In this document: piece by piece, positions 9,922 through 25,713 of the stretch
Position numbering within the stretch: the stretch's first letter is position 1
Layout of the letters: each line of letters begins with the position of its first letter
NCBI GenBank assembly: GCA_019359075.1
Contig: JAHHIB010000080.1
Span: 1 to 41,387, forward strand
DNA: 41,387 nt
Direction: 5' to 3'
From: Kalymmatonema hyalinum WJT4-NPBG1
Lineage (GTDB): Bacteria; Cyanobacteriota; Cyanobacteriia; Cyanobacteriales; Nostocaceae
Notes under the pieces: generated by a model
Told to the model about the DNA's origin: nothing
The model's database searches: none
Seen by the model: the letters and a program-made list of their open reading frames with translations, nothing else
Position numbers and translations under genes: made by a program

Positions 9922-11916
9922 ATGAGTGAAATACATAGATTTGACCGTCAGTTTTGGCAAAGATTTTTGGCACTTGTCCAGCCTTACTGGTATCCACTAT
10001 CCGATAGAAGAGGAACTTTTGTGGGGCTGTTGCTGTTGCTAATGGCATTCCTCTTAATAATTTCTTTTATTACTGTCAGCGCAATCAGCTTAGGAGGACA
10101 GCACTATTTTCCAGAAATCCTCAACAGTATTGCTCCAGGTTTAGCAGACTCTGTTACCCAGATTATCCAGTCGCCAGCTATCTATTTCATTGGTTTACTT
10201 TTACTTGCTACAATTGGTGGTTTTGCTTACTACAAGCAACAGTTACAAGAACGTTGGCAACCGTGGTTGATGTCAACGATTATATTGTTGTTGCTGCTAT
10301 CAAGTACGGTGGTGAATGTTTTGAGCAGTTATTTGGGTCGGGACTTGATTACCGTGATGGCTCGACACCAGATATCAAACTATTTTTCCCTGCTCTTACT
10401 TTACAGCACTTCGCTAATCGCAATCGTCCCCTTGATGGTTTTTTCCCAATACATCAAAAAGAAACTCTTTCTCGACTGGCAACAATGGTTAACCAACTAT
10501 TTTCTTGATAAATATCTCTACAATAGAGCCTATTACGAACTCAAGACCAATCTTGATATCGATAACCCAGACCAACGTATCTCTAAGGAAGTTGAATCAT
10601 TTACTCAAACCATCTTGGATTTTTGGGTCGCTATTCTGAATCAAGTTGTTAATCTAATCGCTTACGGAATTGTTCTCTGGACAATTTCTAAACTACTGGT
10701 TACTACTCTGGTAATTTATTCAGTGTTAGCCAACCTAAGCGTGATTTTTTTTAGTAAACGCTTAGTTAATCTTAACGGTGAAAAACTCCAATACGAAGCC
10801 AACTTTCGGTATGGTTTGGTTAGAATCCGCGACAATGCTGAATCTATCGCCTTGTCTGGTGGAGAAAATCAAGAATTGAGTCTAGTAAAGCGGCGATTGG
10901 CTCAACTCATGCAGAACTTGCATCTGCTCGTCGGCTGGGAGCGGAATATAGAATTTTTAACCGTGGCGTATCAAAATTCTATCTTTATCATACCGTACTT
11001 AGCCCTAGGGTCATTATATTTTAGCGGTCAGGTTGAGTTAGGGACAGTAACTCAAGCGAGTATATTGTGCTTTCAGCTTTCGGGGGCGCTTTCAGTGATT
11101 GTACGTAGATTTGATACTCTCAGCTCTCTTGCTGCTGTGGTTAATCGTTTGGCTAGCCTTGCGGAAGTTTTGTCAGCGCCAAAGAAACAAGAAAATGTCA
11201 GCACTATTGAACTAGTGGAGGACAACCGCTTTGCTACAGAAGCAATGACTTTGCAAACTCCTAACGGCGAACGGACATTAGTTAAAGATTTGTCGGTTTC
11301 AGTAGAACCTGGTGAGAGAATACTGATTATGGGGGCTAGTGGTCTTGGCAAGAGTTCTTTGATAAGGGCGATCGCCGGGTTGTGGAACACAGGATGTGGT
11401 CGCATCGTACGACCTAGCTTAGAGGAAATCATGTTTTTGCCCCAGCGTCCTTACATGATTCTGGGTTCTCTACGGGAACAGTTGCTCTACCCCAACGCTG
11501 ATCGTGAAATTCCAGATGAAGAACTGGAGTCAGTGCTGCACCAAGTTAACCTTCCCGAGTTGCTCTCTAAAGTAGGCGGCTTTGATGCAGAACTAGATTG
11601 GAGTAGCGTTTTGTCCATAGGAGAACAACAGCGTCTTGCCTTCGCAAGACTCCTACTCAATCGCCCCCGCTACGCCTTATTGGATGAAGCGACCAGTGCT
11701 TTGGATCTGCAAAACGAGAAGCATCTGTACCAACAGCTACAGGAAAGTGAAACCACCTTTATCAGTGTTGGTCATCGAGAGAGTTTACTGAACTATCACA
11801 AGCTTGTTCTAGAAATCTTGAGTGATTCTAGCTGGCGGCTGATACCAGTACAAAACTTTGTCCCTCAGCTTGATCACCTCCAAAATCCTCAATTCTCTGA
11901 AGTTATTGCTGGGTAG
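9922..11916 (+). CDS. YddA/ABCD-type ABC transporter, permease-ATPase fusion (long form)
   Basis: The 664-residue half-transporter has five to six membrane helices followed by an ATPase. The membrane half carries signatures of the ABC_membrane_2 (SbmA/BacA/YddA, eukaryotic ABCD) family: 'IDNPDQRI', 'EANFRYGLVRIRDNAESIAL' and 'WLTNYFLDKYLY'. The ATPase has Walker A GASGLGKS (471-478), the signature LSIGEQQ (565-571), Walker B ending 'LLDEA' (586-590) and the switch His H618. An extra hydrophobic section near residues 45-130 makes it about 100 residues longer than its paralogue at 15770. There is no C39 peptidase domain. Substrate is not evident; export of the lanthipeptide encoded at 24697 is a reasonable guess from proximity. 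Confidence 0.88.
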   Translation: MSEIHRFDRQFWQRFLALVQPYWYPLSDRRGTFVGLLLLLMAFLLIISFITVSAISLGGQHYFPEILNSIAPGLADSVTQIIQSPAIYFIGLLLLATIGGFAYYKQQLQERWQPWLMSTIILLLLLSSTVVNVLSSYLGRDLITVMARHQISNYFSLLLLYSTSLIAIVPLMVFSQYIKKKLFLDWQQWLTNYFLDKYLYNRAYYELKTNLDIDNPDQRISKEVESFTQTILDFWVAILNQVVNLIAYGIVLWTISKLLVTTLVIYSVLANLSVIFFSKRLVNLNGEKLQYEANFRYGLVRIRDNAESIALSGGENQELSLVKRRLAQLMQNLHLLVGWERNIEFLTVAYQNSIFIIPYLALGSLYFSGQVELGTVTQASILCFQLSGALSVIVRRFDTLSSLAAVVNRLASLAEVLSAPKKQENVSTIELVEDNRFATEAMTLQTPNGERTLVKDLSVSVEPGERILIMGASGLGKSSLIRAIAGLWNTGCGRIVRPSLEEIMFLPQRPYMILGSLREQLLYPNADREIPDEELESVLHQVNLPELLSKVGGFDAELDWSSVLSIGEQQRLAFARLLLNRPRYALLDEATSALDLQNEKHLYQQLQESETTFISVGHRESLLNYHKLVLEILSDSSWRLIPVQNFVPQLDHLQNPQFSEVIAG

Positions 11917-12232: not shown

Positions 12233-12949
12233 ATGACCATAGATTCTAAGCCTTCTTCCATTTCCGAATTCCACTGGCCATATTACCTTCGCCACAACGA
12301 AAAGCGTCTGGCTCACTTGGCTTCGCTAAATCTGCCTTTAGAGAACAGGACAGTCCTGGAAATTGCAGCTGGTATTGGAGACCATACTCCCTTTTTCTTG
12401 GCGCGTGGATGCTCTGTGACAATTACCGAAGGCAGAGCAGACAATCTTGAGGTGCTTAGGGATAGATACCCGGAAAACCGGATAGTGCAGTTAGATATGG
12501 ATTGTCCCAAATGGGATACAGAAGAATTATTTGATATCGTTTACTGTTACGGCGCACTATATCATTTCTCTAAGCCAGATAAGGCTATTGAGTTTATGTC
12601 CTGCCATTGCCGCGATTTATTGTTAGTGGAAAGCCTCGTATCTTTTGGGGATGGTGAAGAAATTAGCCTTTGTGAGGAACTAGACAATCCGACACAATCG
12701 CTGTATCAGATTGGTTGCCGTCCCACCCGTAAATGGATATATGCACAGTTGCAAAAGTATTTTGAATTTGTGTATCTGCCAATCACCCAACCAGACCATG
12801 AGCAATTCCCCACTGACTGGACAAAGCCCCCTAAATCATCATTAACTAAAAGCCGCGCCGTGTTTGTCGCCTCAAGAGCGCCGATTGATAATCCCTTGCT
12901 AAGTCCGAAACTAGAGAATCACCAGGCAAGGTTTAGCATTGAAACTTGA
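12233..12949 (+). CDS. Class I SAM-dependent methyltransferase
   Basis: The 238-residue product has a Rossmann-type methyltransferase core. Motif I is 'VLEIAAGIGDHTPFF' (about residues 41-55), followed by an acidic strand end ('VTITEGRADNLEVL'), 'QLDMDC' and motif IV-like 'FDIVYCYGALYHFSKP'. The residue after motif I and the 'YGALYHF' loop are typical of small-molecule or N-methyltransferases. No substrate-binding domain is recognisable. No good ribosome-binding site precedes the ATG. It sits between a transposase remnant and the glycosyltransferase gene. In the cyanobacterial divamide cluster a methyltransferase methylates the peptide N-terminus, so a role in lanthipeptide tailoring is possible. 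Nothing in the sequence proves it. Confidence 0.8.
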   Translation: MTIDSKPSSISEFHWPYYLRHNEKRLAHLASLNLPLENRTVLEIAAGIGDHTPFFLARGCSVTITEGRADNLEVLRDRYPENRIVQLDMDCPKWDTEELFDIVYCYGALYHFSKPDKAIEFMSCHCRDLLLVESLVSFGDGEEISLCEELDNPTQSLYQIGCRPTRKWIYAQLQKYFEFVYLPITQPDHEQFPTDWTKPPKSSLTKSRAVFVASRAPIDNPLLSPKLENHQARFSIET

Positions 12950-13056: not shown

Positions 13057-13920
13057 CTAAGCCATTCTGAAAGCTTGTTCGTATCCTCTTTGATAAGCAA
13101 CTTTCCATAACCATGCCGCCAAGTGTTCCCTGCTACGGATTTTTACTAAATCTTTAAGCAGAAGTTTCCAGTCTGTTTTTCCATCCGGCAAGGGACCTGA
13201 ATAGATGCCTAATGGTTGATATTTTTTATATAGGCAAAAACTAGACTTTCCATATCCATAAGCCTGACGGTAAATATCAGCTAAGGTATGACGAAGGCGA
13301 TAGTGGATCTTGAGGTCTGGGATATGATGCAGCTTCGTCCCAGCTAGCTGCACTCTCCAACTATAGTCCACATCGTCGCCGATGAGTATGGACTCATCAA
13401 ATCCGCCGATCGCTTCATGGACTGAGCGTTTAATCCCAATAGTATATCCTCCGGCAATGGAGTATTTCACAAAGCTGTTGTCCCTCATAATGCCATCTGC
13501 CCACCCGTCAAGCAGTTGACCACCCATTCTCGCCTTGATTGCCCAGGGTTGGTTAAGTTTCTTTATATCACAATAGCCAGCCACGAAATCATACTGAGAG
13601 AGTGCCTCCCCCATAGCCGCTACCCAACCAGATCCGACTTCGTCGTCAGCCTCGCAGAAGCCAAGTGCTTCGCTTGCAGCAGCTTGTGCGCCCACATTCC
13701 TGCCATGAGCAGCTCCTCGTCGATCCGAGCAGTCAACGACTCGTAAATTCGGTAGCTTTTCCTGATACTGTTGTGCAATTGCTGTGGTGCGATCGCTCGA
13801 TCCGCCATCGGAAATAATTACCTCCCAAGGCTCTGACCAGTGCTGGTTAGCCAAGGCTTCCAATTGAACGGCAATGGTACGCTCTGCATTAAAACAAGGG
13901 ATAATGACACTCAGTTTCAT
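13057..13920 (-). CDS. Family 2 glycosyltransferase
   Basis: The 287-residue GT2 enzyme begins 'MKLSVIIPCFNAERTI' (nucleotide-binding N-terminus), then 'EVIISDGGSSDRT' and 'EADDEV' as the DxD-like metal site, and 'DDVDYSWRVQLAG' as the likely catalytic-base region. No membrane anchor is apparent. I start at the ATG at 13920 because it gives the family N-terminus directly; a TTG at 13992 would add 24 residues of no domain character. It lies 87 nt after the FkbM gene on the same strand, so the two may be co-transcribed and act in glycan or glycopeptide synthesis. The acceptor is unknown. Confidence 0.85.
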   Translation of the reverse strand: MKLSVIIPCFNAERTIAVQLEALANQHWSEPWEVIISDGGSSDRTTAIAQQYQEKLPNLRVVDCSDRRGAAHGRNVGAQAAASEALGFCEADDEVGSGWVAAMGEALSQYDFVAGYCDIKKLNQPWAIKARMGGQLLDGWADGIMRDNSFVKYSIAGGYTIGIKRSVHEAIGGFDESILIGDDVDYSWRVQLAGTKLHHIPDLKIHYRLRHTLADIYRQAYGYGKSSFCLYKKYQPLGIYSGPLPDGKTDWKLLLKDLVKIRSREHLAAWLWKVAYQRGYEQAFRMA

Positions 13921-14007
13921 TTTTCCAAAATTATTAATCAGTTTTCTAATGGATGATTTATTAGTTGAGACAAGTGCTATTTCTAATTCCAAATTCTTAA
14001 ATTGTTG

Positions 14008-15699
14008 CTACTGATTGTTATTCTGACTTAGCTGATTAAGCTGTGAATGCACTACCTCAACTGACTTAAGTTGGTTTTGAAGGTTGCTGACTAATTGCCT
14101 TTCTGCTGCCAGCAATACCTCTAAATTTTTCTGACTATTCTGTAACTCTTGTATAATTTGATTTTTTTCGGCTATTGCTGCATCTGAATTTTCTATCCAT
14201 TGCCGCAACTCATGAGAACTTTGCTTTTCCTGTATTAAAGTTAATTGTAGTTTGGCAGCACTAATTGCCATATCCCATCTAGTAATTATATCCTTAGCGA
14301 CTTCCACAGCTTCAGAATCAGCATTAGCTAGGCGTTCATTTACTTCTTCAACATCCATAACTGCGAATAAATTTGCATAATAATATTGCTGCCTAATTGG
14401 TTCAGGTATCAGGCAAAGATTAGTTGGATCGAAGCGACAAAGAGTGTAACCAAAACTTTCTATAATAGTTCGTAATTCTCTAGTGTTACTGCCAGCAGCT
14501 ACAGCATTTGCTTCGGTAAATTCTATCATCAAAAGCGGAAACTTTCCTGCACGAATTGATTGATTGGCTCCTCTCAAAACCAATGATTCCCATCCTTCAA
14601 CGTCTATCTTAGCCAGGTCTACTCTATTAATATCTAAATTTTGTAATACATCATCTAATGGTAACTGTTCTACTAACAGGTTTTCATTACCTATGTAAGG
14701 ATCTGTTTTCGTCCCTTTTGCAAAAGTGCTAAAAGCAGACATTCCTGGCTTACCTAACAAAAGTTCTCCAAAACCTTTTGTCTCAGACAAACCTAAATTT
14801 AGTGCTGTAAAACAATCACAACCCATATTTTTAAGATTGTGTTCGTACAACTGAAAACATATTGGATTTGGGTCAAATCCTACTATTCTACCAGTATTAC
14901 ATAATCGCTTTGCGGCAATACATGAGAAAAGACCAGTATGAGAGCCGCAATCAAAAAAAGTATCGCCCGGTCGCAAGTAGAGCCATAAAAATGCTTGTTC
15001 AGATCCCTCAAAAATACCTTGCTCCAAGTATTGACCAACACAATCATTTGTTGGAGTACGTAAGACTCCAACATAAGGAACTTTCACATCAAAGTATCCT
15101 AGCTGCTGATTAGCGATTGAGTATCGGTTTATCCTAACAAACTCTAAATTTTCCTTTAGCCCGACGGTTAATGAGGGAGTATAAACTAAGCGGAATCCTT
15201 TATTCGTCAAATATTCTACAATTTCTTCTTTATTTGCCACCTTTTCATAAATGGAATTATTAGAAATTTGAATCAAAATCTTTTGAATGCAATGAATATA
15301 TTTACCTGCACCCTTTAATACCTGGAATTCATAACCAGGGGCATTTATTTTTAGTACATCTATTTCTACAATAGTATTTTGCTTTATGAAATTATCGAGA
15401 CGAGTAACGTTAGCTTTTATCATCTTGAATCCCATTTCTTCAACGTTCGACTCTAAGTTGCTAGTAGAGGATTCAGGTAACAAAAATGATGTGAAATTAT
15501 TTGTATTTACATAAAAATTAGATATGCCTTCTTGCTCTCCCATAGCTGTACAAAAAACATGAAGATTAGGCTTGTTATGTGAGCGAATTTGTTCTACATT
15601 TTCTGGAACCAACTCAATTGCATAAACAATATTGTTAATATCTTTAACAAATGGGAGGGAAAATTTCCCATTATCAGCGCCAACATCAACTATTATCAT
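14008..15699 (-). CDS. Tandem FkbM-type methyltransferase with C-terminal coiled coil
   Basis: The 563-residue protein carries two FkbM-family methyltransferase domains. The first (about 1-180) starts at the SAM motif 'VDVGADNG' (4-11), but its later motif reads 'KINAPGYE' (118-125) instead of the family 'KIDVEG'. The second (about 225-430) has 'FDCGSHTG' (249-256) and an intact 'KIDVEGWE' (364-371). Residues about 480-563 are Gln/Glu/Leu-rich and likely coiled coil. FkbM enzymes O-methylate sugars and natural products. The first domain may be inactive. The start is well placed: AGGAGG lies 8 nt before the ATG. The gene is divergent from the second ABC transporter (71 nt apart). Confidence 0.85.
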   Translation of the reverse strand: MIIVDVGADNGKFSLPFVKDINNIVYAIELVPENVEQIRSHNKPNLHVFCTAMGEQEGISNFYVNTNNFTSFLLPESSTSNLESNVEEMGFKMIKANVTRLDNFIKQNTIVEIDVLKINAPGYEFQVLKGAGKYIHCIQKILIQISNNSIYEKVANKEEIVEYLTNKGFRLVYTPSLTVGLKENLEFVRINRYSIANQQLGYFDVKVPYVGVLRTPTNDCVGQYLEQGIFEGSEQAFLWLYLRPGDTFFDCGSHTGLFSCIAAKRLCNTGRIVGFDPNPICFQLYEHNLKNMGCDCFTALNLGLSETKGFGELLLGKPGMSAFSTFAKGTKTDPYIGNENLLVEQLPLDDVLQNLDINRVDLAKIDVEGWESLVLRGANQSIRAGKFPLLMIEFTEANAVAAGSNTRELRTIIESFGYTLCRFDPTNLCLIPEPIRQQYYYANLFAVMDVEEVNERLANADSEAVEVAKDIITRWDMAISAAKLQLTLIQEKQSSHELRQWIENSDAAIAEKNQIIQELQNSQKNLEVLLAAERQLVSNLQNQLKSVEVVHSQLNQLSQNNNQ

Positions 15700-15769: not shown

Positions 15770-17461
15770 ATGAATCGATTAAACTTGAAACCACTGAAGC
15801 AGTTTTGGGCGATCGCAAAACTTTACTGGCTTGGAGGCGAGAAAATAGGTGCGTTTGGTCTACTCCTACTTGTAGGGTTAGTGTTATTAAGCTACACAAA
15901 TCTGAGCGTAGTATTGAACGAACAACAGGGCACTTTGATTTCCGCCCTATCCCAAAAAAACTCGCAGAGGTTCTGGCAAGCTGTACTCACTTTCTTAGGG
16001 ATTTTAGTGGTTTATGTTCCACTTTTTGCTGGCTACGGTTATTTAGGGAATAAGCTAGGTATCTTCTGGCGGCGGTGGATGACAAGTTATTTTCTAGATA
16101 AATATTTGGAAAAAGAAAATCGGGGGTTTTACTACCTGAATTCAAATAAAGAAATTGACAATCCAGACCAGCGCATTTGTGAGGATATCAAAAGTTTTAC
16201 TCAAGATGCTTTAGGTTTTTTTCTGGGAATCATTAACGCAGTGCTTCAAATAATTGCTTTTAGTGGAGTTTTGTGGAAGATTTACCAGCCTCTAGTCTTA
16301 TTAATCGTAGTTTATGTGTTGCTCGGCATAAGTGTAGTAATTATATTTTTTGGTAAACCATTAGTTAGGCTTAATTTTGAACAGCTAAAAAAAGAAGCAA
16401 ATTTTCGCTTTGGCTTGCTCAGAATCCGGGAAAACTCAGAATCTATAGCTTTTTATCGTGGGGAAGTACAAGAGTTAAGCTATACCAAAAAGCTGTTTAA
16501 TGAGTTATTTGAAAATTTAAATCACCTGATATTACGTGAGTTTCATTTGGTTTTACTAACCAATCCTTATCAATTTTTGACCTACCTTCTTCCAGCAGTA
16601 ATTCTAGCTCCTAAGGTTTTGGCGGGAGACATTGAAGTTGGTAAAGTTTCTGAGTCTATGGGTGCTTTTCTGAATGTTTTCTTAGCGTTGAATTTTATTG
16701 TTAATCGATTTAATTCTTGGACTGGATTTGTGGCTGGAATCGACCGATTGTACACCTTTAAACAGTACCTTGAACAACGAAATAAAGCTAAAAACACAAT
16801 ACAAGTTTATGCACCGACGATCAATATACTCGAAGAGTCTTGCTTGGCTATTAAGCAACTGACGCTGCAAACCCCGAACTATTCAAGAACCCTAGTGGAA
16901 AATCTATCTTTAGAACTGCCCTTGAGACAAGGATTACTGGTGATGGGGGCGAGTGGCTGTGGTAAAAGTTCGCTGTTGCGGGCGATCGCGGGTTTATGGA
17001 ATTCTGGTACAGGGACAATCATCCGCCCTAATCTTAGTGAAATGCTGTTTCTGCCCCAGCGCCCATACATGATTTTGGGTACACTACGCAATCAGCTAAT
17101 TTATCCAAGTACTGAGAGTCAACTGGAGGACGAGCAACTTCGTCGTGTTCTCCAACAAGTCGGCTTGCCAAACTTAGCGGAGAGATTCGGTGGTTTAGAT
17201 GTCGAACAAGATTGGTCTGATGTCCTTTCCTTGGGAGAACAACAGCGGGTTGCTTTTGCCCGTCTGTTTATTACTAGACCTCGTTATGCCATTCTCGATG
17301 AGGCTACCAGCGCTTTGGATATCAAAAACGAGGAAAATCTGTACCAGCATCTTGTGGAAACCGGGACAACTTACATTAGTGTTGGACATCGCCCGACTTT
17401 GGTGAAGTACCACCATTTCTTACTGGATCTGCTAGAAAATGGAAGGTGGAAACTTAGTTAA
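15770..17461 (+). CDS. YddA/ABCD-type ABC transporter, permease-ATPase fusion (short form)
   Basis: The 563-residue protein is a paralogue of the transporter at 9922, sharing 'YFLDKYLEKENRGFYYL', 'IDNPDQRI' and 'EANFRFGLLRIRENSESIAF' in the membrane half. The ATPase has Walker A GASGCGKS (393-400), signature LSLGEQQ (486-492), Walker B ending 'ILDEA' (508-512) and H540 in the H-loop. It lacks the extra hydrophobic section of the longer paralogue and has no peptidase domain. Proteins of this type work as dimers; two paralogues flanking a tailoring block could form a heterodimer. It converges on the lanthipeptide operon with only 68 nt between stops. Its last 33 nt are part of a direct repeat (17429-17536). 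Confidence 0.87.
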   Translation: MNRLNLKPLKQFWAIAKLYWLGGEKIGAFGLLLLVGLVLLSYTNLSVVLNEQQGTLISALSQKNSQRFWQAVLTFLGILVVYVPLFAGYGYLGNKLGIFWRRWMTSYFLDKYLEKENRGFYYLNSNKEIDNPDQRICEDIKSFTQDALGFFLGIINAVLQIIAFSGVLWKIYQPLVLLIVVYVLLGISVVIIFFGKPLVRLNFEQLKKEANFRFGLLRIRENSESIAFYRGEVQELSYTKKLFNELFENLNHLILREFHLVLLTNPYQFLTYLLPAVILAPKVLAGDIEVGKVSESMGAFLNVFLALNFIVNRFNSWTGFVAGIDRLYTFKQYLEQRNKAKNTIQVYAPTINILEESCLAIKQLTLQTPNYSRTLVENLSLELPLRQGLLVMGASGCGKSSLLRAIAGLWNSGTGTIIRPNLSEMLFLPQRPYMILGTLRNQLIYPSTESQLEDEQLRRVLQQVGLPNLAERFGGLDVEQDWSDVLSLGEQQRVAFARLFITRPRYAILDEATSALDIKNEENLYQHLVETGTTYISVGHRPTLVKYHHFLLDLLENGRWKLS

Positions 17462-17536
17462 TTGCATCAGCAAGTTTAATCCGTAAAAAGATGCAATCTG
17501 CTGCTAGAAAATGGAAGGTGGAAACTTAGTTAATTG
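17429..17536. repeat. 36-bp direct repeat, 72-bp period
   Basis: The 36 nt at 17429-17464, which end the ABC gene and include its TAA, recur exactly at 17501-17536 (beginning CTGCTAGAAAATGG). The second copy runs 7 nt into the convergent oxygenase gene and supplies its last codon and stop. This looks like a recent local duplication joining the two convergent genes. Confidence 0.9.
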
Positions 17537-18264
17537 GGCGATTCATTTCCATTACTGTTATTGGTAAATGCTTCTTTTAACGAGCGACTACGCTCATGAT
17601 AAACCGTAGGATTGTCGAATGCTAAAGAAAGATTGATTCGGTGAGACTCCGGTTTCGTATTAGCAAAGCGAAAATCATCAGTTTGATGAAAGGTACTCGC
17701 TGCAAACAAAAGTGCACGATTACATTTGTAACTGACGCTGACCTTTTGACCTGCCGTATGATCTTTCATATACTCCTCTGACCAAAGATATGACAAAGAC
17801 TTACCAGGCGGAGGTTCGGATTCACGTTTGACATCAAAAAAGATCAGACCACCCCCAGAAGAGTCTAAGTTGTACTCCTCTGGCGTTAGCCAGAGGTTCA
17901 AGGTTAAAGACCCAATGTCAGAGTGTACCTTCCCAGATGCATTTTTAGGGTACATGAGCGCCCAATGCTCAATCAACTCATACTCAGAGAACAAAGAGGG
18001 GCATTGGGCTTTGAGGGATTCCGCGATCGTAAAAATTGTCTCGATACTAGGGCCCATATTGCTTACGACAGGTTGCCCCGTGTTATCCTGGTAGCGCCAT
18101 CCTGGGTGAGTCAATAACTCTTGATGAAGCTGCTTGCAAACATCAGGCTGGAGGAAATCGTCTATAACGGCATAATTGTACGGCGCAGAAGCCTCGTAGG
18201 CTGCCAACACCGATTGCCACTCACGTGGAGCGATAGGAGAATACTTTAATAAATCTTTACCCAT
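17530..18264 (-). CDS. 2OG-Fe(II) oxygenase
   Basis: The 244-residue protein has the double-stranded beta-helix iron site of 2-oxoglutarate oxygenases: H114 and D116 ('GKVHSDIGSL'), distal H193 ('STFHQTDDF') and R209 ('SHRINLSLAF') for 2-oxoglutarate. 'NLWLTPEEYN...GGGLIFFD' is the intervening strand pair. AGGAGG before the ATG supports the start. It is the last gene on the minus strand of the lanthipeptide operon, 76 nt after the gene at 18341. It could hydroxylate the lanthipeptide, either at Asp15 or at another residue. The stop codon comes from the second copy of a 36-bp duplication. Confidence 0.85.
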   Translation of the reverse strand: MGKDLLKYSPIAPREWQSVLAAYEASAPYNYAVIDDFLQPDVCKQLHQELLTHPGWRYQDNTGQPVVSNMGPSIETIFTIAESLKAQCPSLFSEYELIEHWALMYPKNASGKVHSDIGSLTLNLWLTPEEYNLDSSGGGLIFFDVKRESEPPPGKSLSYLWSEEYMKDHTAGQKVSVSYKCNRALLFAASTFHQTDDFRFANTKPESHRINLSLAFDNPTVYHERSRSLKEAFTNNSNGNESPN

Positions 18265-18340: not shown

Positions 18341-18718
18341 TTATTGAGAATTAAGTTTTTCGATGCTAATTTTAAAGCCCAGCTTGCTTTCTATCGTCTT
18401 AAGTTCATTAATAGCGGGTACCATATTGGTTTGATCATTCTGCCACTCCAGCAACCGTTTTTCCGACTCTGTCATATCTGTTTGCCCAAACACCGAATTC
18501 AACCAGTTAAACAGACCATCCACGCTCACATCATCACACGGAGTTGCCTGAGCGTGAGCTATCGTTTCAGTTTCAGGAATTGCTAAGGCCATTTCCAACA
18601 ACTGACGTAGCTTACTCTGAGGTGAGAGACACAAACACAGGAACATTAACATCTGTATTTGTCGGATTTCATCTCGATCCAGACCTCTAAACGTACCTTT
18701 TTTCTCGCCTGTATTCAT
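18341..18718 (-). CDS. Hypothetical 125-residue protein, candidate lysinoalanine synthase
   Basis: I recognise no domain. The 125-residue protein is mostly predicted helix ('DEIRQIQMLMFLCLCL', 'KLRQLLEMALAI', 'TESEKRLLEWQN') with a conserved-looking 'VDGLFNWLNSVFGQ' segment and no signal peptide. Lysinoalanine formation in cinnamycin-type peptides needs a small helical protein of about 120 residues (Cinorf7, DurN). This gene is the only unassigned cytosolic protein of that size in the operon, so I propose it by size and position only. The reading frame stays open upstream to 18982, but that part crosses palindromic repeats, so I start at ATG 18718. The N-terminus holds an 8-residue tandem repeat (GEKK-VMNT-GEKK). 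Confidence 0.5.
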   Translation of the reverse strand: MNTGEKKGTFRGLDRDEIRQIQMLMFLCLCLSPQSKLRQLLEMALAIPETETIAHAQATPCDDVSVDGLFNWLNSVFGQTDMTESEKRLLEWQNDQTNMVPAINELKTIESKLGFKISIEKLNSQ

Positions 18719-19009: not shown

Positions 19010-19303
19010 CTAGTTCGCTTTGTTTGCTTCTGCCTTGTGCTTCTTCGCCTCCTCTTGCAGTTGCTCATAGAATTCTGGAGAAACTGTTGGTAGGATTGTG
19101 GTCATTGTGGGCATTGTGGGCATTATTGTTGTCAGAATTGTTGGCGAAGTTGCTTGCTCTGTCGGTTGTTGTGTTGGCGTTGTTGGCTGCGTCGGTTTCA
19201 TTCCTTCAGCGTTTACAGTCCTCACCTGCAAACCGCAAGCTAAGACAACGGCAAATAACACCGCTAAAATTGCTCGGATCATCGGCTTAATTGTCAGTTT
19301 CAT
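19010..19303 (-). CDS. Small secreted Thr/Pro-rich protein
   Basis: The 97-residue product has a clear signal peptide (about 1-32, 'AILAVLFAVVLACGLQVRTVNA', which I read as cleaved after NA). The rest is a Thr/Pro/Met-rich repeat section ('PTQPTTPTQQPTEQATSPT', then 'IMPTMPTM') and a charged, Lys/Ala/Glu-rich tail ('QEEAKKHKAEANKAN'). AGGGAG just upstream supports the ATG at 19303. I recognise no family. It lies in the lanthipeptide operon between the Nif11-domain protein gene and the 125-residue protein gene. It could be a structural or tethering factor outside the membrane; no enzymatic motif is visible. Confidence 0.7.
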   Translation of the reverse strand: MKLTIKPMIRAILAVLFAVVLACGLQVRTVNAEGMKPTQPTTPTQQPTEQATSPTILTTIMPTMPTMTTILPTVSPEFYEQLQEEAKKHKAEANKAN

Positions 19304-19462: not shown

Positions 19463-20392
19463 TTAAGAAGACTGCAATAATTTCTCCATCCATTTATTAG
19501 AAACTTGAAACCCAAAACTCCACCTATTTGATTTCGTAGTATTAGCGATGCAATGCCAAAATAATTTGCTTGGCTCGTTTTCGATTTTAAAAAATCTGAC
19601 TACCTTTGGCTTTTCTTCCAGGGTAACTAACTCTTTAGTTGAAGGATTCATGTAGCGGAAAAATGCTTCTCCCTCGTCCTTAGGTTCAAAATAGTCAAAA
19701 TCAACCAGATACATTCGCCAACCCGGTTGGGTTTCGTTGGTATGCCACAATCTATAGGAGTTTGGGGGATACCATAAGCTTCCAGAAAACCTAAATTCAG
19801 TTGCAAAAAAATCTTCTAGGAGCTTGAGCAGCCTCACTTTTGTCCGAAAATAATCTTCATAGAGCGGATGCTCTACATAAACGTCCAGGTTAATTAAATG
19901 AAATGGACGCCACGCATATTCAGGTTGAGGACCGGGGACATCTAAATCCAAATAGGAATTTTGTAATTCTTCATACATCTGCTTAAATGCCGGTGAAGCT
20001 GGGGAGACATATGTAAATTTACAATCTTCTTCCCGAAAGTTTTGTTCATACAAATTTAAATGCACTGTACTGGGCTTAATTTTAAGTTTTTCAAATTCCT
20101 GGGCTATTTCCTCAAACCCTGGAATCTCCGAAAATTCAAACTCATAATGGTAAAACTGGGTAAAATTATTGCTGACGTCAGCATCAGAAGAGTTTGTAGG
20201 GAAAAGAGGTTTGCTATTTTTTCGAGTAGAAGAAGTATTTGCTTGGGTGATATCTTCTATCGTGAAATAGTAGCTATTTCTGGCTCCTAACTTAATAAGT
20301 TCTTCCGGACGTGTGATTGCTTTAATCTCCTGTTTCAATTCTTCTGAATTAAAGATTGCTTCATAGAAGTTAATCACAGCTTCTTTTGACAT
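19463..20392 (-). CDS. Nif11-domain protein with AspH-like oxygenase tail; candidate Asp15 hydroxylase (CinX-like role)
   Basis: The 309-residue protein starts with a Nif11-type domain (about 1-50: 'MSKEAVINFYEAIFNSEEL', 'ELIKLGARNSYYFTIEDI'), a domain normally found in RiPP leaders. The C-terminal half looks like a double-stranded beta-helix: 'SLWYPPNSYRLWHTNE' gives H217, N219 and E220; 'GWRMYLV' gives R226; 'LFWHCI' gives H280; 'NRWSFGF' gives R290. The spacing H280 to R290 fits 2-oxoglutarate enzymes, while the missing Asp (HxN, not HxD) recalls aspartate beta-hydroxylase (AspH), which uses only two histidines. Cinnamycin needs Asp15 beta-hydroxylation by CinX, and the core here keeps Asp15, so this gene is my first candidate. 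GAGG precedes the ATG. The fold call is by eye. Confidence 0.55.
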   Translation of the reverse strand: MSKEAVINFYEAIFNSEELKQEIKAITRPEELIKLGARNSYYFTIEDITQANTSSTRKNSKPLFPTNSSDADVSNNFTQFYHYEFEFSEIPGFEEIAQEFEKLKIKPSTVHLNLYEQNFREEDCKFTYVSPASPAFKQMYEELQNSYLDLDVPGPQPEYAWRPFHLINLDVYVEHPLYEDYFRTKVRLLKLLEDFFATEFRFSGSLWYPPNSYRLWHTNETQPGWRMYLVDFDYFEPKDEGEAFFRYMNPSTKELVTLEEKPKVVRFFKIENEPSKLFWHCIANTTKSNRWSFGFQVSNKWMEKLLQSS

Positions 20393-20434: not shown

Positions 20435-21223
20435 TTAATTAGTATTGATTCGCATCAAAAGTTTGATAACATTAACATTACCTGCTATGCGAGAGTCGCT
20501 GAAAATCTGATCGAGATAATCTCTGCTAGCATTAACAGCTAAGGTTCGTGCCGTCAAAAATCCAGGGCGACTGTCATCGTCTTTGTTGAGTCCATCAGGG
20601 CATACCAAGGGGGCACCATGACGACACTTTCCTTGAGGAACGCCACAGATCCTGGATTCCAAATCGATGATGAAATATCCAGAAGTTAGTTGCTTTAAGC
20701 CCTCACCGCCTAGAATCGCTGGATCTGTGGGACAGGTTAGGGTTTTTGTATCCGCTCCGGAGAATATTTCCCGTCCTATCTTTGTGTTGATATTCGGGCT
20801 GCTATGACCGAGTTCTACCCAGTTGCTATGTGCATAGAAGTCTTGGATAGTATGTAAAGCAGTCCCTAAATCGTTACGCGCTGAGGTAGCTTGAGGAGAA
20901 TCCGAGGTCACTTTGCTAATGACTCTTTCTTTGAGATCCATGACCCGTTTACTACCACCAAGGAAGTCTTCGCCGTCAAAATGCTTCTCACTGTTAAACT
21001 GATTGGGGAGATCGTCTGTGTCCTTATTTGCTTTCACAATTTGGTCAATAGCATAATCAGTAAATTTGAGTGTCTGCTGACCGCCAGCCACCACTTGGAA
21101 ATCAGCCAACACCTCTCGGGTGATTTGTTCGTGAATTGGCACTTTGAAAGCCAAGGCTGGTGATGGCATTCCTAGTAGGAATCCTAGTAACAACAAGCAG
21201 ACCAAAATAATTGCATTTTTCAT
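20435..21223 (-). CDS. Secreted Het-C-like protein (zinc phospholipase C/P1 nuclease superfamily)
   Basis: The 262-residue protein has a signal peptide (1-25, ending 'SPALA') and a helical Het-C-type domain. Candidate zinc ligands are H31 ('PIHEQITREVL'), H81 and D84 region, and 'GTALHTIQDFYAHSNWVELGH' with H124, D128, H132 and H140, the family's signature. Het-C proteins share their fold with zinc-dependent phospholipase C. Four Cys (in 'TLTCPTD', 'RICGVPQGKCRHG', 'LVCPDG') probably form disulfides. AGGAG lies well before the ATG. It starts 22 nt after the lanM stop and so belongs to the lanthipeptide operon. A role on membrane phospholipid, in line with the PE-binding of cinnamycin-type peptides, is a guess. 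Confidence 0.75.
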   Translation of the reverse strand: MKNAIILVCLLLLGFLLGMPSPALAFKVPIHEQITREVLADFQVVAGGQQTLKFTDYAIDQIVKANKDTDDLPNQFNSEKHFDGEDFLGGSKRVMDLKERVISKVTSDSPQATSARNDLGTALHTIQDFYAHSNWVELGHSSPNINTKIGREIFSGADTKTLTCPTDPAILGGEGLKQLTSGYFIIDLESRICGVPQGKCRHGAPLVCPDGLNKDDDSRPGFLTARTLAVNASRDYLDQIFSDSRIAGNVNVIKLLMRINTN

Positions 21224-21245: not shown

Positions 21246-24200
21246 CTACACCTGTGGAGGTGGGTCGAGTAGCAGAGGCGAAGGAACGCGCTCCGGATAA
21301 GCTAGCCGCAAAAAGTGCATTCCAATTCCTGCGATTCCAAGCATCAAATCAGGGAAAATATCGTTCGTATTCGATCCGCAAATCCAGCACCGCGCTTTCT
21401 CAAAATTACGCCACTGCGCCTGTGCAACCACATTCGCTTCCATCTGTAAATAAGGTTCGTCCTTGAGCTTGGCAATTCGCACGAATAGTTCAGCATTACC
21501 CGCTTTGCCGTGACATAGCGAATCATTACCCAGTTTGTTAAAATTACGCACAGTTGCATTCAGCGCCATGTAAGCATCGCGCAATATATCGTCATCAGTT
21601 TTTCCTAAAGCTGCCCAACTCGCAATCCGGCTCAAACCAATTCCGGCTGCACCGTTGCACCAAGCGTTAGCAAAATGTTTCTGGTTTGGGTCTTCTGATG
21701 TCATCACGGATTTGCGTAAATCATACCAATCGCGCTGCTGTTGATCAAAGTGAGCTGTTTCATATGCAAACGCTTGACGAGCTGCGGTAATGTACTCAGG
21801 CTGATTGAGGTGGCAACCTAGCAAAATCAGCGCCCAACCGATGCCACTGCCCCCATGAGAAAAACCGGTGAGATTGTCTCGCGCTAGTTCTGGTCGTCCA
21901 CCACGCCAACTCAAGGTATCACCTCGGCGAGTTGCCTCCGCAAGCAGGTGTTGAGCGCACTGCACAGCACAATCTATTCCTTTACCGTCAGTCGCTGCTG
22001 CCAAATTTAGCATCACGGGAATAAGTCCGGCGACGCCATGAAGAATATCAAAGTATTGGTCTTGATGAATTCTGGCTTTAACTTCATCACTCAACTCTAC
22101 CGCCAGATCAAGCAGTGCTGGTCGGTTCCACAGTTGAGCTAGATGGGTCAATAAGTAAATCAACCCCCCTGTCCCTTTGTAAGCTCCAACAAACGTAGTA
22201 TCGCGTTGCTCTATGGCGTGCGACAAGGCTCGCTCTGCGGCTTGGCGAAATTCTGGTTGTGGTTGAATAGCATCTAAATAAGCCAAAAATAGGCAGATTC
22301 CAGCAGAGCCATCGTAGAGATCGGCGCTGATATCCACAAGGCGTTTGCCAGTGGCGGTATAGTCACAGGTTTGCCACGGAGCCTTACTGGTGTCAGGTTG
22401 GAGCCGTTCACACAATTGCCAGCCAATTTGTTGAGCATAGTTAACAGCTGAGGCAATGAAATAGGGGCTATTGATTTCCTCAGGAGATAAACTAGTATAA
22501 ATATACTGATTTTGGATGATTCGGTTTTCTGTAGACAACTTCTGAATCCGTCGGCAGGCGTTATCCACAGGGGTAATTGCTACTATATTAGGCAGTGTTT
22601 GTTGATAGTTAGCAATCAAATCTTGGCTGTTGGCGGCTTTGGTAGTAAAGATGGGGACATCTAATTGCCACATTGCTGCTAGCTCCATCTGCGCCAATTC
22701 TCTGTTTTCGTCCCACTGCCGATGGTGTTCGTTTAAAGTATTGAAAAGCAAATCTACTTCCAGTGGTTCGGCAAGACATTTTGGATGTCGTGCAGCAATG
22801 ATTAATTTAGCATATGCCTGTGTTCCCCAATTTAGAAAGCGCACCGAGGAGGATGAGAACAAGTCTTGGATGAGCGCGATCGCCTGGTTCTGGTTTTGTT
22901 GAAACCACTCATAAACTCGGTTAAACCCCTCCACAATCTCGTTTTTATAATCTTGAGGCTGTACAAGCTGATCTTGGTAATAAATGCGATTGGTGGCTTC
23001 AATTTCAATCCGTACCCCGCCTTGATGTTCGATTCCCACGGCAAATGACATGCGATGGTCGTTAACCTTGGGGACAGTATAGGAGAGTTCGTAAGATTCG
23101 CCACCGCTATAGCCGCTAATCCTCATCTGATTGCCATCATCAGCATCATCACGAGGCCATTCCAGCATGGCAGTCTTCAACACTGAATCAAAGATTGTTC
23201 CGAGCGATTTGTCCATGCCATAAGGCACCGCTTCTAAAACCGTTTCACAGTCGCAGATGAAAGCGTTACCATCAGTTGCCAGAATATTTTCATGATGGAG
23301 ATCGCCCCCTCCCAGGATATGGAAAATACCTAAAAATCCACCCAGTTGCTGGTAGAATCGCTCTACAGCTTGCTGGCTTTGGACATCATTTTTTCCTGGG
23401 GGAATAAACTCGGCATACCCATAGTCCTCTTTACAAAGGACTTGATAAGTCGCAAACTTAACAACCTGATGCTGAACCAAATGCTTAAGTAAACCTTGCA
23501 TCGCTGCTTCCGATTCAACACAGCGAGGCTTGTAAACAATAGTGGCGGGTTCGCAATTGTTTAGTTCTAGTTCCACAATCACGACACTCTTACCGCCACC
23601 ATGATAGTCAGAATTGCCTAATTTTAAGGATTTAATCGCTGTAATAGTTTTACCTTCAAAGAAAGTCGCACTCAGTTCATGGCGATCGCAACTCAAACGT
23701 TGCAGCAGTTCTTCCCCCTGATGGCACACAAAAGAGGTGACCTGTGCTAACCAACGTCCCAGCATGGGAAACTGACAATAAAAACGATGATAATCCTCCT
23801 GGGTATGAAAGGTTTTTTCCAGATAGGCAATATAGGCATCAGGATTATCAGTTGATTTGTCAATCTTGTTTTGAGAGCAGTAAATATTGATATTAGCTTC
23901 CAGCGCCCAGGCTAGGTGCATATCAAACCGATTCAGCAAGTAAAGCTCAATATCAGTCACCACCTGCTGATGAATCTGACAATTGTCGCAAGCTGCATCG
24001 ACTGCATCGCAAAACGGCTGCAAAGTTTTGTGCAACAATCGCAAAAACGGTTCGCAAACTTTAGCAAATTTTCCGTAGTAAATCTCTCTTTTGTACCAGT
24101 CAGTTTGGCAAAATTTGTCTTGTGGTAAATCCAACGTTGCCATTGCTGCTTGATACACTGGCAACCATTGACGATGAAGTTCGATGAAAACTAATTTGTC

Positions 24201-24497
24201 TGAATCAGATAAATTGTCTAAATTTCGTTCAGCTAATTTATAGTCAGTGAGCAGCTTTTGTAAATCATCTATGAGCGATTGACTAATGGTTCCTTTCTCA
24301 AAAGCTTCCTTAACTGGCTGTACAGCTAATTTACTTGTTAATTTCTTTATGTTCCAGTTATCCAGAGGACTCAGAGGTGTTTTCCATTCCGCCTGTGTCT
24401 TGCTTTGAAATAGTTCTTCGATGATTATACCCCGCTCTCTTAGGTTACTAGCACGGCACGCTAATTTGAGGAGAAAAGAATCATTGAGCATAGTCAT
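21246..24497 (-). CDS. lanM: Class II lanthipeptide synthetase LanM
   Basis: The 1083-residue bifunctional enzyme dehydrates Ser/Thr in the precursor core and then forms the thioether rings. The N-terminal dehydratase (DUF4135, about 120-500) has a kinase-like active site: 'GGDLHHENIL' (D399, H401/H402, N404) and 'FICDCETV' (D416, E418). The C-terminal LanC-like cyclase (about 700-1080) has 'SHGGSGIG' (H881), C947 ('AWCNGAAGIG'), and C995-H996 ('LCHGKAGN'), the complete zinc set. Length is normal for the family. It follows the precursor gene by 199 nt that contain a hairpin. Two in-frame ATGs (24497 and 24491) precede a weak ribosome-binding site. All catalytic residues I can check are present, so the enzyme should be active. 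Confidence 0.96.
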   Translation of the reverse strand: MTMLNDSFLLKLACRASNLRERGIIIEELFQSKTQAEWKTPLSPLDNWNIKKLTSKLAVQPVKEAFEKGTISQSLIDDLQKLLTDYKLAERNLDNLSDSDKLVFIELHRQWLPVYQAAMATLDLPQDKFCQTDWYKREIYYGKFAKVCEPFLRLLHKTLQPFCDAVDAACDNCQIHQQVVTDIELYLLNRFDMHLAWALEANINIYCSQNKIDKSTDNPDAYIAYLEKTFHTQEDYHRFYCQFPMLGRWLAQVTSFVCHQGEELLQRLSCDRHELSATFFEGKTITAIKSLKLGNSDYHGGGKSVVIVELELNNCEPATIVYKPRCVESEAAMQGLLKHLVQHQVVKFATYQVLCKEDYGYAEFIPPGKNDVQSQQAVERFYQQLGGFLGIFHILGGGDLHHENILATDGNAFICDCETVLEAVPYGMDKSLGTIFDSVLKTAMLEWPRDDADDGNQMRISGYSGGESYELSYTVPKVNDHRMSFAVGIEHQGGVRIEIEATNRIYYQDQLVQPQDYKNEIVEGFNRVYEWFQQNQNQAIALIQDLFSSSSVRFLNWGTQAYAKLIIAARHPKCLAEPLEVDLLFNTLNEHHRQWDENRELAQMELAAMWQLDVPIFTTKAANSQDLIANYQQTLPNIVAITPVDNACRRIQKLSTENRIIQNQYIYTSLSPEEINSPYFIASAVNYAQQIGWQLCERLQPDTSKAPWQTCDYTATGKRLVDISADLYDGSAGICLFLAYLDAIQPQPEFRQAAERALSHAIEQRDTTFVGAYKGTGGLIYLLTHLAQLWNRPALLDLAVELSDEVKARIHQDQYFDILHGVAGLIPVMLNLAAATDGKGIDCAVQCAQHLLAEATRRGDTLSWRGGRPELARDNLTGFSHGGSGIGWALILLGCHLNQPEYITAARQAFAYETAHFDQQQRDWYDLRKSVMTSEDPNQKHFANAWCNGAAGIGLSRIASWAALGKTDDDILRDAYMALNATVRNFNKLGNDSLCHGKAGNAELFVRIAKLKDEPYLQMEANVVAQAQWRNFEKARCWICGSNTNDIFPDLMLGIAGIGMHFLRLAYPERVPSPLLLDPPPQV

Positions 24498-24611
24498 CTC
24501 ATACCAAGTTGCAGTCTAATCTCTAAATTTAGAACCGAGATATTTTCCAATTTTTTTGCGTCTCGATCAACTTTTCAGCTATCTTTCTGACACCAAATGT
24601 TTTTCTTGAAA

Positions 24612-24668
24612 CCTGGCTAGGAACACAAGCGCGTCGTGCTGCTAGCCAGGCGATAGCTTTAGGCTATC
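24612..24668 (-). promoter_or_regulatory. Hairpins between lanA and lanM, possible attenuator
   Basis: Two stems lie in the 199-nt gap. GATAGC/GCTATC (24652-24668, 5-nt loop) comes first in the transcript, and CCTGGCTAG/CTAGCCAGG (24612-24650, 21-nt loop) second. On the minus strand the second stem is followed by TTTC. This arrangement would let most transcripts stop after the precursor gene and only some continue into lanM, as in many lanthipeptide operons, giving excess precursor over enzyme. Confidence 0.55.
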
Positions 24669-24696: not shown

Positions 24697-24972
24697 TTAC
24701 TTGGTAGTTCCATCACAGACGATGGTCAGGGGTCCCCCGCTACAGGTAGATTGACACTGTGCCATGATGTCGAGCTGCCCTAAAGCATCGTTTAACAACG
24801 CAACAAAGGACTGGTCCTGCTTCTCGACTGAGTTCGGTAACTCAATGTCAGCATTGATGCCAAACACTTCTGGATGATTCCGAAGCTCATTAGAGAACTC
24901 GGCATCAACCGCAGCCATCTGTAATAGCTGTTCCAAGTATTCTACTGAGGATGTTTGTAAAGTTGTGGACAT
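24697..24972 (-). CDS. lanA: Cinnamycin-family class II lanthipeptide precursor
   Basis: The 91-residue product has a 72-residue leader and the 19-residue core CQSTCSGGPLTIVCDGTTK, which aligns without gaps to cinnamycin CRQSCSFGPFTFVCDGNTK. By analogy I predict C1-T18, T4-C14 and C5-T11 thioether rings, an S6-K19 lysinoalanine bridge and hydroxylated Asp15. The leader matches CinA's in order and spacing: 'VDAEF' (22-26), FG (37-38), LP (45-46), VE (49-50) and QDQ (52-54). It ends 'MAQ', not the 'AFA' motif of CinA. AAGGAGG lies 8 nt before the ATG at 24972; the longer open frame to 25026 has no such site. First gene of a seven-gene minus-strand operon. The family assignment is strong; the mature structure is inferred. 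Confidence 0.95.
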   Translation of the reverse strand: MSTTLQTSSVEYLEQLLQMAAVDAEFSNELRNHPEVFGINADIELPNSVEKQDQSFVALLNDALGQLDIMAQCQSTCSGGPLTIVCDGTTK

Positions 24973-25713
24973 AATTTTGCCTCCTTGTACTACTGAAGAG
25001 AGCCTTTGCTGGCATTTAAAAACCATCTAGTATGATGATTTTTCTCTTCTAATAAAACAATAGATCAAATCCTTCGCCCAACAAAATGTATTCAAAGTTA
25101 CATTATTTATCCTGCTTATCAAAACTCTGGCAAAATACTATAGTTAATAGTAGTTTCCAATTAGACAAAAAGCGAATTTTTACTTTTTACTTAAACATGT
25201 ATATGGTGGAATTACATTAAACTAATAAAAATTAATAAAAATGTAGTCTCTTTACATTTAAAACTAGGTAGTATGTATAACATTAATTCTCAATTTGCTG
25301 CTGGTAAAACTTTAGTACTACGAAAATACAGTAGGAAACGTTTTTTACGACTCTACTCGATATAAAATTCATTGAAAACTGTTACTTTGCAGTACTTACA
25401 AAGAGCATTTGTTGTTTAACAGGAATCAGAAGAATTAATGAGAAGGTAAATTTCCAAAAAATATAGTAAAATATCAAAATTTGCTCATTTTTTAAAAAAT
25501 TTACCTAATTCCCGTCAGGTTGTCTACGTAACTGTCTTATTTGCTATTGCATCTTCACCGCCAGAGCGAGATGACTTTTCACGTCATGTGGAAAAGACAA
25601 GCATGACCTAACCCCCCAGCCCTCTTGAGGTCCGGGGGAGAAATTTAAAGCCTTTCTGCTTGCAGGAGAGAGGAATGGAAGCGAGGTTTTCCAGATAAGA
25701 GTGAAAAGTCAGC
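24973..25713. promoter_or_regulatory. AT-rich upstream region of the lanthipeptide operon
   Basis: This 741-nt region must hold the lanA promoter and it also follows the TrkA gene. It is mostly AT-rich with no supported gene. An open frame of 30 codons at 25273 has only a weak ribosome-binding site. The last 150 nt contain degenerate 'CCCCCAGCCCTCTTGAGG'-like repeat sequence. No hairpin with a T-run stands out, and I could not identify a regulator site. Confidence 0.45.

Follow-up and report, generated by a model that had tools for sequence, protein, structure and literature searches.

The window, meaning the whole stretch of DNA analysed (41,387 nucleotides from the cyanobacterium Kalymmatonema hyalinum WJT4-NPBG1), very probably carries a cinnamycin-type class II lanthipeptide cluster whose product would be assembled by the pathway proposed below, would target PE and would spare a producer in which that lipid is absent. 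As far as the core genes A, M, X and N go, the cluster is of the ordinary cinnamycin kind, and to these are joined cyanobacterial additions of open function; judged from the sequence, the gene set for such a peptide looks complete. Relatives are identified below by locus (L) or genome (G) number.

Precursor, enzymes and proposed pathway

The precursor gene, lanA, lies on the minus strand from its ATG at 24972 to 24697, exactly where the original prediction had placed a 91-residue precursor. The sequence AAGGAGG ends 7 bases before the ATG, and the L027 precursors share this start position. The translation, which ends CQSTCSGGPLTIVCDGTTK, is matched from residue 12 or 13 to residue 91 by two profiles, PF19398 (DurB-like; 96.1 bits, cut-off 26.6, E 1.6e-27) and NF033431 (cinnamycin_RiPP; 104.1 bits, cut-off 35), and by this sequence measure its match to the cinnamycin family is not a chance one. 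The PDB yielded a single match to the precursor, the 22-residue peptide of 6c0h (E 0.2), which is weak because the peptide is so short. The gene is present once in the genome (8.4 Mb in 174 contigs, 95% complete).

The 19-residue core (24700-24756, minus strand) fits the pattern C-x-x-[ST]-C-[ST]-x4-T-x2-C-D-G-x-T-K and, as had been predicted, aligns with cinnamycin without gaps. Twelve positions are identical (C1, C5, S6, G8, P9, T11, V13, C14, D15, G16, T18 and K19), position 4 is T where cinnamycin has S, and G7, L10 and I12 stand where cinnamycin has F7, F10 and F12. The leader landmarks also follow the predicted order, that of CinA, with VDAEF, FG, LP, VE and QDQ in the window and VDADF, FG, LP, VE and QDQ in S. 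cinnamoneus (L018). The leader ends in MAQ instead of the AFA of CinA, so that the cleavage site may be shifted upstream by one residue; an AFA-like end is common in the class without defining it. The original expectation of five dehydration or bridge steps did not hold: four dehydrations (T4, S6, T11 and T18) are expected, together with three methyllanthionines, one lysinoalanine and hydroxy-Asp15, and the computed monoisotopic mass of the 19-residue predicted product is 1813.78.

Downstream on the same strand follow lanM (21246..24497; 1083 residues), for a class II lanthionine synthetase (TIGR03897, 614 bits); lanY (20435..21223; 262 residues), for a CinY-like protein of the VWA7_N/Het-C type (PF25107, 98.8 bits) with a signal peptide apparent by eye; and lanX (19463..20392; 309 residues), for a CinX-type Asp hydroxylase with an N-terminal Nif11 domain (PF07862, 41 bits). 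Next come a small Thr/Pro-rich ORF (19010..19303; 97 residues) with a signal-like N-terminus, similar to an ORF of L075 but with no counterpart visible between the X and N genes of L027, and lanN (18341..18718; 125 residues), for a DurN-type lysinoalanine synthase (PF19375, 95.4 bits) that matches the solved lysinoalanine synthase 6c0g at E 1e-16; its internal ATG start was picked by comparison with L027. The minus-strand series closes with OX2 (17530..18264; 244 residues), considered below. On the plus strand, divergent from the cluster, lies a gene for an SbmA/BacA-like ABC transporter, probably the exporter (15770..17461; 563 residues; PF06472, 187.8 bits), and a transporter of this type also stands beside the clusters of L027, L028 and L075. 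A, M, X and N are thus identified at the level of sequence, and with LanM, a CinX orthologue and DurN adjoining the precursor the predicted membership of the cinnamycin class is upheld. Nif11 domains are otherwise known from RiPP leaders; one stands at the start of all seven CinX-type hydroxylases scanned (window, L007, L008, L011, L012, L018 and L079). The CinX-type residues H217, D233, H280 and R290 are invariant in 34 aligned rows, and the PDB holds no relative of CinX that we could find.

Several neighbouring genes were observed besides. A second SbmA/BacA-like ABC transporter gene lies at 9922-11916, and similar ones are found near the clusters of L027 and L072. A glycosyltransferase gene and an FkbM-type methyltransferase gene (13057-15699 together, the latter at 14008-15699) adjoin the cluster, the L027 cluster also having a glycosyltransferase gene beside it, and another methyltransferase-like gene occupies 12233-12949.

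In the proposed pathway, LanM would dehydrate T4, S6, T11 and T18 and close methyllanthionine rings 1-18, 4-14 and 5-11, LanX would hydroxylate Asp15, and LanN would hold the peptide such that Lys19 can add to dehydroalanine-6, giving the lysinoalanine bridge. The leader would then be removed, and the neighbouring ABC transporter would probably export the product. OX2 would probably add a further oxidation. We expect the mature peptide to bind the PE of competitors, its producer being protected by membranes that probably lack PE. We infer the ring pattern, the order of steps and PE binding by analogy with characterised relatives; the exporter role, the action of OX2 as a peptide hydroxylase and immunity by target absence are proposed in this analysis only.

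Between A and M there is an attenuator-like hairpin (24611..24651, minus strand), recognised by fold stability and comparison. The 199-base gap folds with a z of -3.0, none of 200 shuffles being as stable. When the most stable 60-base stretch of the gap was taken from each of 15 loci, a similar hairpin was seen in six; when these six alike cyanobacterial loci were aligned, both partners had changed in four of 15 pairs, while in six of the 15 one or two rows have a gap or no pairing, a covariation to be read as selected evidence because the other nine loci lie outside the alignment. At the same place in cin, an inverted repeat is described as a transcriptional attenuator (PMC5408092).

OX2 is probably a 2OG-Fe(II) oxygenase, to judge from its residues and one annotated match. 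Enzymes of this kind have HxD...H ligands and a distal Arg; H114, D116, H193 and R209 of OX2 are invariant in all four aligned rows, the window included and the L069 copy outside the alignment. OX2 is distantly related to a cyanophage protein annotated as a 2OG-Fe(II) oxygenase (E 2e-6, 27%) and to plasmid-encoded proteins of Aminobacter, Cupriavidus and Thioclava (26-31%). No NCBIfam model matched it, no Pfam model matched any of four members at E 5, and the PDB searched by sequence held no credible relative; among viral contigs 198 stretches fitted a pattern and none was confirmed as a relative, and the structure model (pLDDT 33.7) was too poor for the fold to be read. PHROGs gave matches at E 1e-9 to phrog_274, whose label is DNA endonuclease V, and at E 6.5e-5 to a minor coat protein family; both were rejected as identifications, an oxygenase being indicated by the HxD...H...R residues as well as by the annotated phage match. 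The gene is present in the window, L008, L027, L028, L069 and L075. L009 has a 55-residue fragment of it, and all 28 actinomycete loci lack it. Clusters with OX2 have P9 in six of six cases against two of five cyanobacterial X-bearing clusters without intact OX2 (Fisher p 0.06, in a post hoc test that ignores kinship and counts L009 once as P9 though its second core has V9), a hint, and only that, of OX2 as a Pro9 hydroxylase.

Known clusters and distribution of relatives

The S. cinnamoneus locus (L018) was taken as the cin cluster because it has the exact cinnamycin core and a CinA of 78 and a CinX of 325 residues, the lengths given in a published table (PMC6974636). The precursor family, LanM, orthologues of CinX and CinN (DurN), a CinY-like gene and the A-M hairpin are common to window and cin, with BLASTP identities of 46.7% for M, 41.3% for X, 36.7% for N and 36.8% for A. 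The clusters differ in that N follows X in the window and precedes A in cin; in that the window cluster contains OX2 and stands beside an SbmA/BacA-like transporter gene, whereas cin has CinTH; and in that neither CinKR nor a SARP was found among 14 window proteins scanned. The cyanobacterial div cluster of Prochloron didemni is described with divA, divM, divX, divN and a transporter gene, and divamide with a GTTK core motif, three MeLan, Lal and OH-Asp (PMC9505594); in that description OX2 and CinY-like genes are unnamed and two div genes are of unknown function. Kyamicin shares Thr4 with the window core, and the kyamicin and duramycin clusters, as tabulated, share the N, A, M and X genes but differ in possessing regulators, an immunity gene and exporters of the CinTH type; for duramycin, though not for kyamicin, the table also lists a Y gene (PMC6974636). 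The literature covered, mainly titles, abstracts and passages with subscription papers mostly outside it, contained no report of the window cluster, nor of a cinnamycin-type cluster in cyanobacteria besides Prochloron, which is no proof of absence.

The kinship of lanY to CinY is real but weak and patchy, because just one of nine whole genomes was matched, that of S. cinnamoneus (E 7.6e-4), with two Oscillatoria and six other actinomycete genomes giving no match, and because relatives occur elsewhere on plasmids of Scytonema and Nostoc. Against the gene that occupies the inferred CinY place in S. cinnamoneus, after two transporter ORFs, lanY aligns at E 2e-5 with 30% identity, and H and D residues are conserved between the two; that gene scores 23.8 bits with PF25107, below the cut-off of 27.5. 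A PDB search with the CinY-like alignment gave nothing credible, and a zinc-dependent phospholipase-C-like role, presumed from the H/D pattern, is our guess. CinY is described as dispensable for cinnamycin production and without known reason to sit in cin (PMC5408092). CinY-like genes recur in four of 18 cyanobacterial loci, against only one of 28 actinomycete loci.

PF19398 matched three of 386 genomes drawn from the phylum, seven of 217 from the window organism's family, 13 of 388 from its order, 22 of 250 from the family of Actinomadura atramentaria (21 above cut-off) and one of 297 from the family of S. cinnamoneus, namely S. cinnamoneus itself, in draws that overlap and contain their centre genomes. 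With 12 of the 13 matches in the order above cut-off and spread over six families, the claim of one further cyanobacterial lineage was correct but understated. Named relatives (12 loci altogether) are Cylindrospermum sp. FACHB-282, Oscillatoria sp. PCC 10802, O. princeps RMCB-10, Dolichospermum sp. ST_sed8, five Actinomadura, one Nocardiopsis, S. cinnamoneus and one actinomycete MAG. After the Cylindrospermum cluster there are haem-oxygenase-like and FGE-sulfatase-like genes (L005:15853-18576 and L006:2650-3603), and the Dolichospermum cluster, too, has after it a gene that by eye resembles the latter. The precursor's relatives as found are cinnamycin-type, S. cinnamoneus with its exact cinnamycin core among them, and the objection that the original prediction had allowed for, namely nearest homologues of another lanthipeptide kind, therefore fails. 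Kinship with non-cinnamycin lanthipeptides or prochlorosins was likewise rejected, the window LanM being at most 30% identical to the ten plasmid LanMs listed out of 155 records (five of the ten cyanobacterial) versus 47% to CinM. Among 72,556 plasmid records, none matched the precursor.

A careful LanM tree, built with 32 rows chosen from 44 (L077, L076 and ten others left out), separates cyanobacterial from actinomycete rows by a branch with 100/100 support, and a quick tree of all 44 agrees (support 97), with L077 on a very long branch. The L027 and L075 clusters are syntenic with that of the window. The closest LanM is that of L075, from another family, with 94% protein identity, and the DNA of the two clusters is alike in pieces of 87.5 to 92.9% identity. 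This similarity ends at 24986, at the Shine-Dalgarno sequence, although a further 9.7 kb of L075 was available, and suggests transfer of the cluster between families.

Core residues and enzyme content

Scanning of 48 loci left 46 distinct ones (18 cyanobacterial and 28 actinomycete) once the duplicates L070 and L071 were set aside, and a precursor is present in 45 of them, L077 being without. Enzymes were counted in the 43 loci with usable LanM, leaving out L013 (at a contig end, with N present and no X in view) and L074 (LanM in two frames). X and N are found together in 32 loci, X only in two, neither in nine and N only in none. With core classes assigned by reading of the core alignment, 32 of the 33 loci whose core has S or T at position 6 and K19 possess DurN, versus none of the ten whose core does not. 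The exception is L028 (G420), with T6; DurN has no match genome-wide there or in G893 (L069, N6), two apparent natural losses of the lysinoalanine step, as far as sequence can tell. Three actinomycete loci (L079, L080 and L091) combine T6 with DurN, so the S6 rule is not strict. The core trait changed just three times independently on the tree (sign test p 0.5), and the statistics of the association are therefore weak once kinship is counted. Hydroxy-Asp15 is the base in the DurN mechanism. Gene content that tracks core chemistry fits the substrate-assisted mode of action described for DurN (PMC10373908). Locus L074 (G981), with S6, K19, a C-terminal extension and DurN 27 kb from the precursor, has the look of a decaying or scattered cluster.

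Four precursors contain two cinnamycin-like repeats each: L025 (9420-9764; repeats, for example, CGRTCVSGFTILCDGSTQ and CRRTCVSGYTIRCDGVTV), L026 (9733-10092), in which the first repeat is without its first Cys, L073 (from 9779) and L076 (from 9760). To our knowledge no two-core cinnamycin-type precursor has been described, a literature search on multi-core lanthipeptides having been uninformative. The repeats have one residue fewer separating the second Cys from the third, and L067 has a single core of this shortened type. All five loci lack Ser6, Lys19 and any X or N, and DurN has no match in four of the five genomes, the one in G934 belonging to another cluster of that genome. The LanMs of L067, L073, L025 and L026 fall into one clade (support 100/100), sister to L028 (100/99); in the quick tree L076 joins this clade. 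In L025 and L026 a gene of 318 or 333 residues, without a Pfam match, lies between A and M. As a separate observation, actinomycete loci L094-L097 combine a cinnamycin-type leader with an unrelated core (ACPATHQCIHTHVCRKTY-like) and LanM, with no X or N in the locus.

Target lipid, immunity and alternative readings

Cinnamycin-type peptides bind PE. S. cinnamoneus is described as methylating its own PE by means of CinL/Cinorf10 (PMC5408092), and this type of immunity, found in cin, dur and kya, is not class-defining. The window genome, a 95%-complete draft, has no match to PS decarboxylase (PF02666) and none to CinL at E 1e-5. These two null results in the assembly suggest immunity through an absent target lipid; the organism is probably without PE and in no need of CinL, and the self-protection gene of the classic producer may thus be unneeded. 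PG is called the sole phospholipid of cyanobacteria in one source (PMC5701814), and a literature search on PE in cyanobacteria found no papers.

A PS decarboxylase match was found in one of 14 distinct cyanobacterial cluster genomes (G908) and in seven of 23 actinomycete ones, in a count without G1030, G1091 and G1009 and with G560 and G561 treated as duplicates of G934 and G922. CinL had no match at E 1e-5 in 11 cyanobacterial cluster genomes, and G908, which is among them, stands by its sequence as an open exception, with PS decarboxylase yet no CinL. Strong CinL homologues (E < 1e-40) occur in the same seven actinomycetes as PS decarboxylase and in none of the 16 others, four of which have weak matches (E 2e-9 to 8e-6). 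The homologue of G1164 has one in-frame stop; those of S. cinnamoneus, G1191 and G1220 alone lie within about 12 kb of the precursor, the other four being on another contig or far from it. The agreement (7/7 versus 0/16) amounts to two independent contrasts and mostly concerns PE methyltransferases outside the clusters, and may for these reasons just reflect the lipid chemistry of the lineages.

It is unlikely that the cinnamycin cage has been kept for another purpose, the peptide recognising a different lipid or serving as a signal. Replacement of F7, F10 and F12 by G, L and I in the window core may weaken PE binding, and positions 7-10 vary among relatives around fixed cage residues (G-G-P-L in the window, A-K-I-F in L007, A-S-I-F in L010, F-G-W-V in L068), as a change of target would lead one to expect; but the window retains Gly8-Pro9, Val13 and Asp15 together with the hydroxylase, and a change at P9 is described as likely to disturb the PE pocket (PMC5408092). 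The absence of PS decarboxylase does not decide on the target, because it is expected of cyanobacteria in general. Improbable too is a divamide-like product, cut after ...IMA so that Gln precedes Cys1, with later conversion of the N-terminus to pyroglutamate or its methylation. Such a cut would suit leaders ending in Q (IMAQ in the window and L075, AAQ in L069, VAQ in L009 precursor 2) beside others ending in VA or MA (L007, L008, L009 precursor 1, L010, L028 and L068), div is itself cyanobacterial with an N-trimethylated Glu described in divamide (PMC9505594), and the two methyltransferase-like genes noted above are nearby. However, neither of these genes is known to be part of the cluster, L027, otherwise syntenic, having no DNA match to the FkbM gene, and the leader end seems simply variable, because MAG (L027), AAS (L072) and VGQ (L074) also occur.

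It is very unlikely that the cluster is silent or in decay and yields no product. No pathway regulator was found among the 14 window proteins scanned by profile, and decayed relatives exist, such as L074 with its LanM in two frames and L009 with its OX2 fragment; the window ORFs, however, are intact, LanM and the cluster DNA are conserved across families to the extent given for L075, and the A-M hairpin shows paired changes. The reading preferred here remains that of a PE-directed cinnamycin-type peptide.

Interest lies in the comparative picture more than in the precursor alone. We tentatively suggest, as a possibility short of an even chance, that cinnamycin-type peptides are mainly weapons of bacteria free of the target lipid and for that reason self-immune, PE methylation being an add-on in PE-making actinomycetes, and that cyanobacteria have reworked the system, OX2 (perhaps as a Pro9 hydroxylase) joining it and an offshoot losing Ser6, Lys19, DurN and CinX on the way to two tandem cores. 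The survey makes two questions testable: is DurN required solely where a reaction between residue 6 and Lys19 is possible, and can producers that lack PE do without an immunity gene? The natural cyanobacterial variants, together with a candidate tailoring oxygenase, widen the cinnamycin scaffold.
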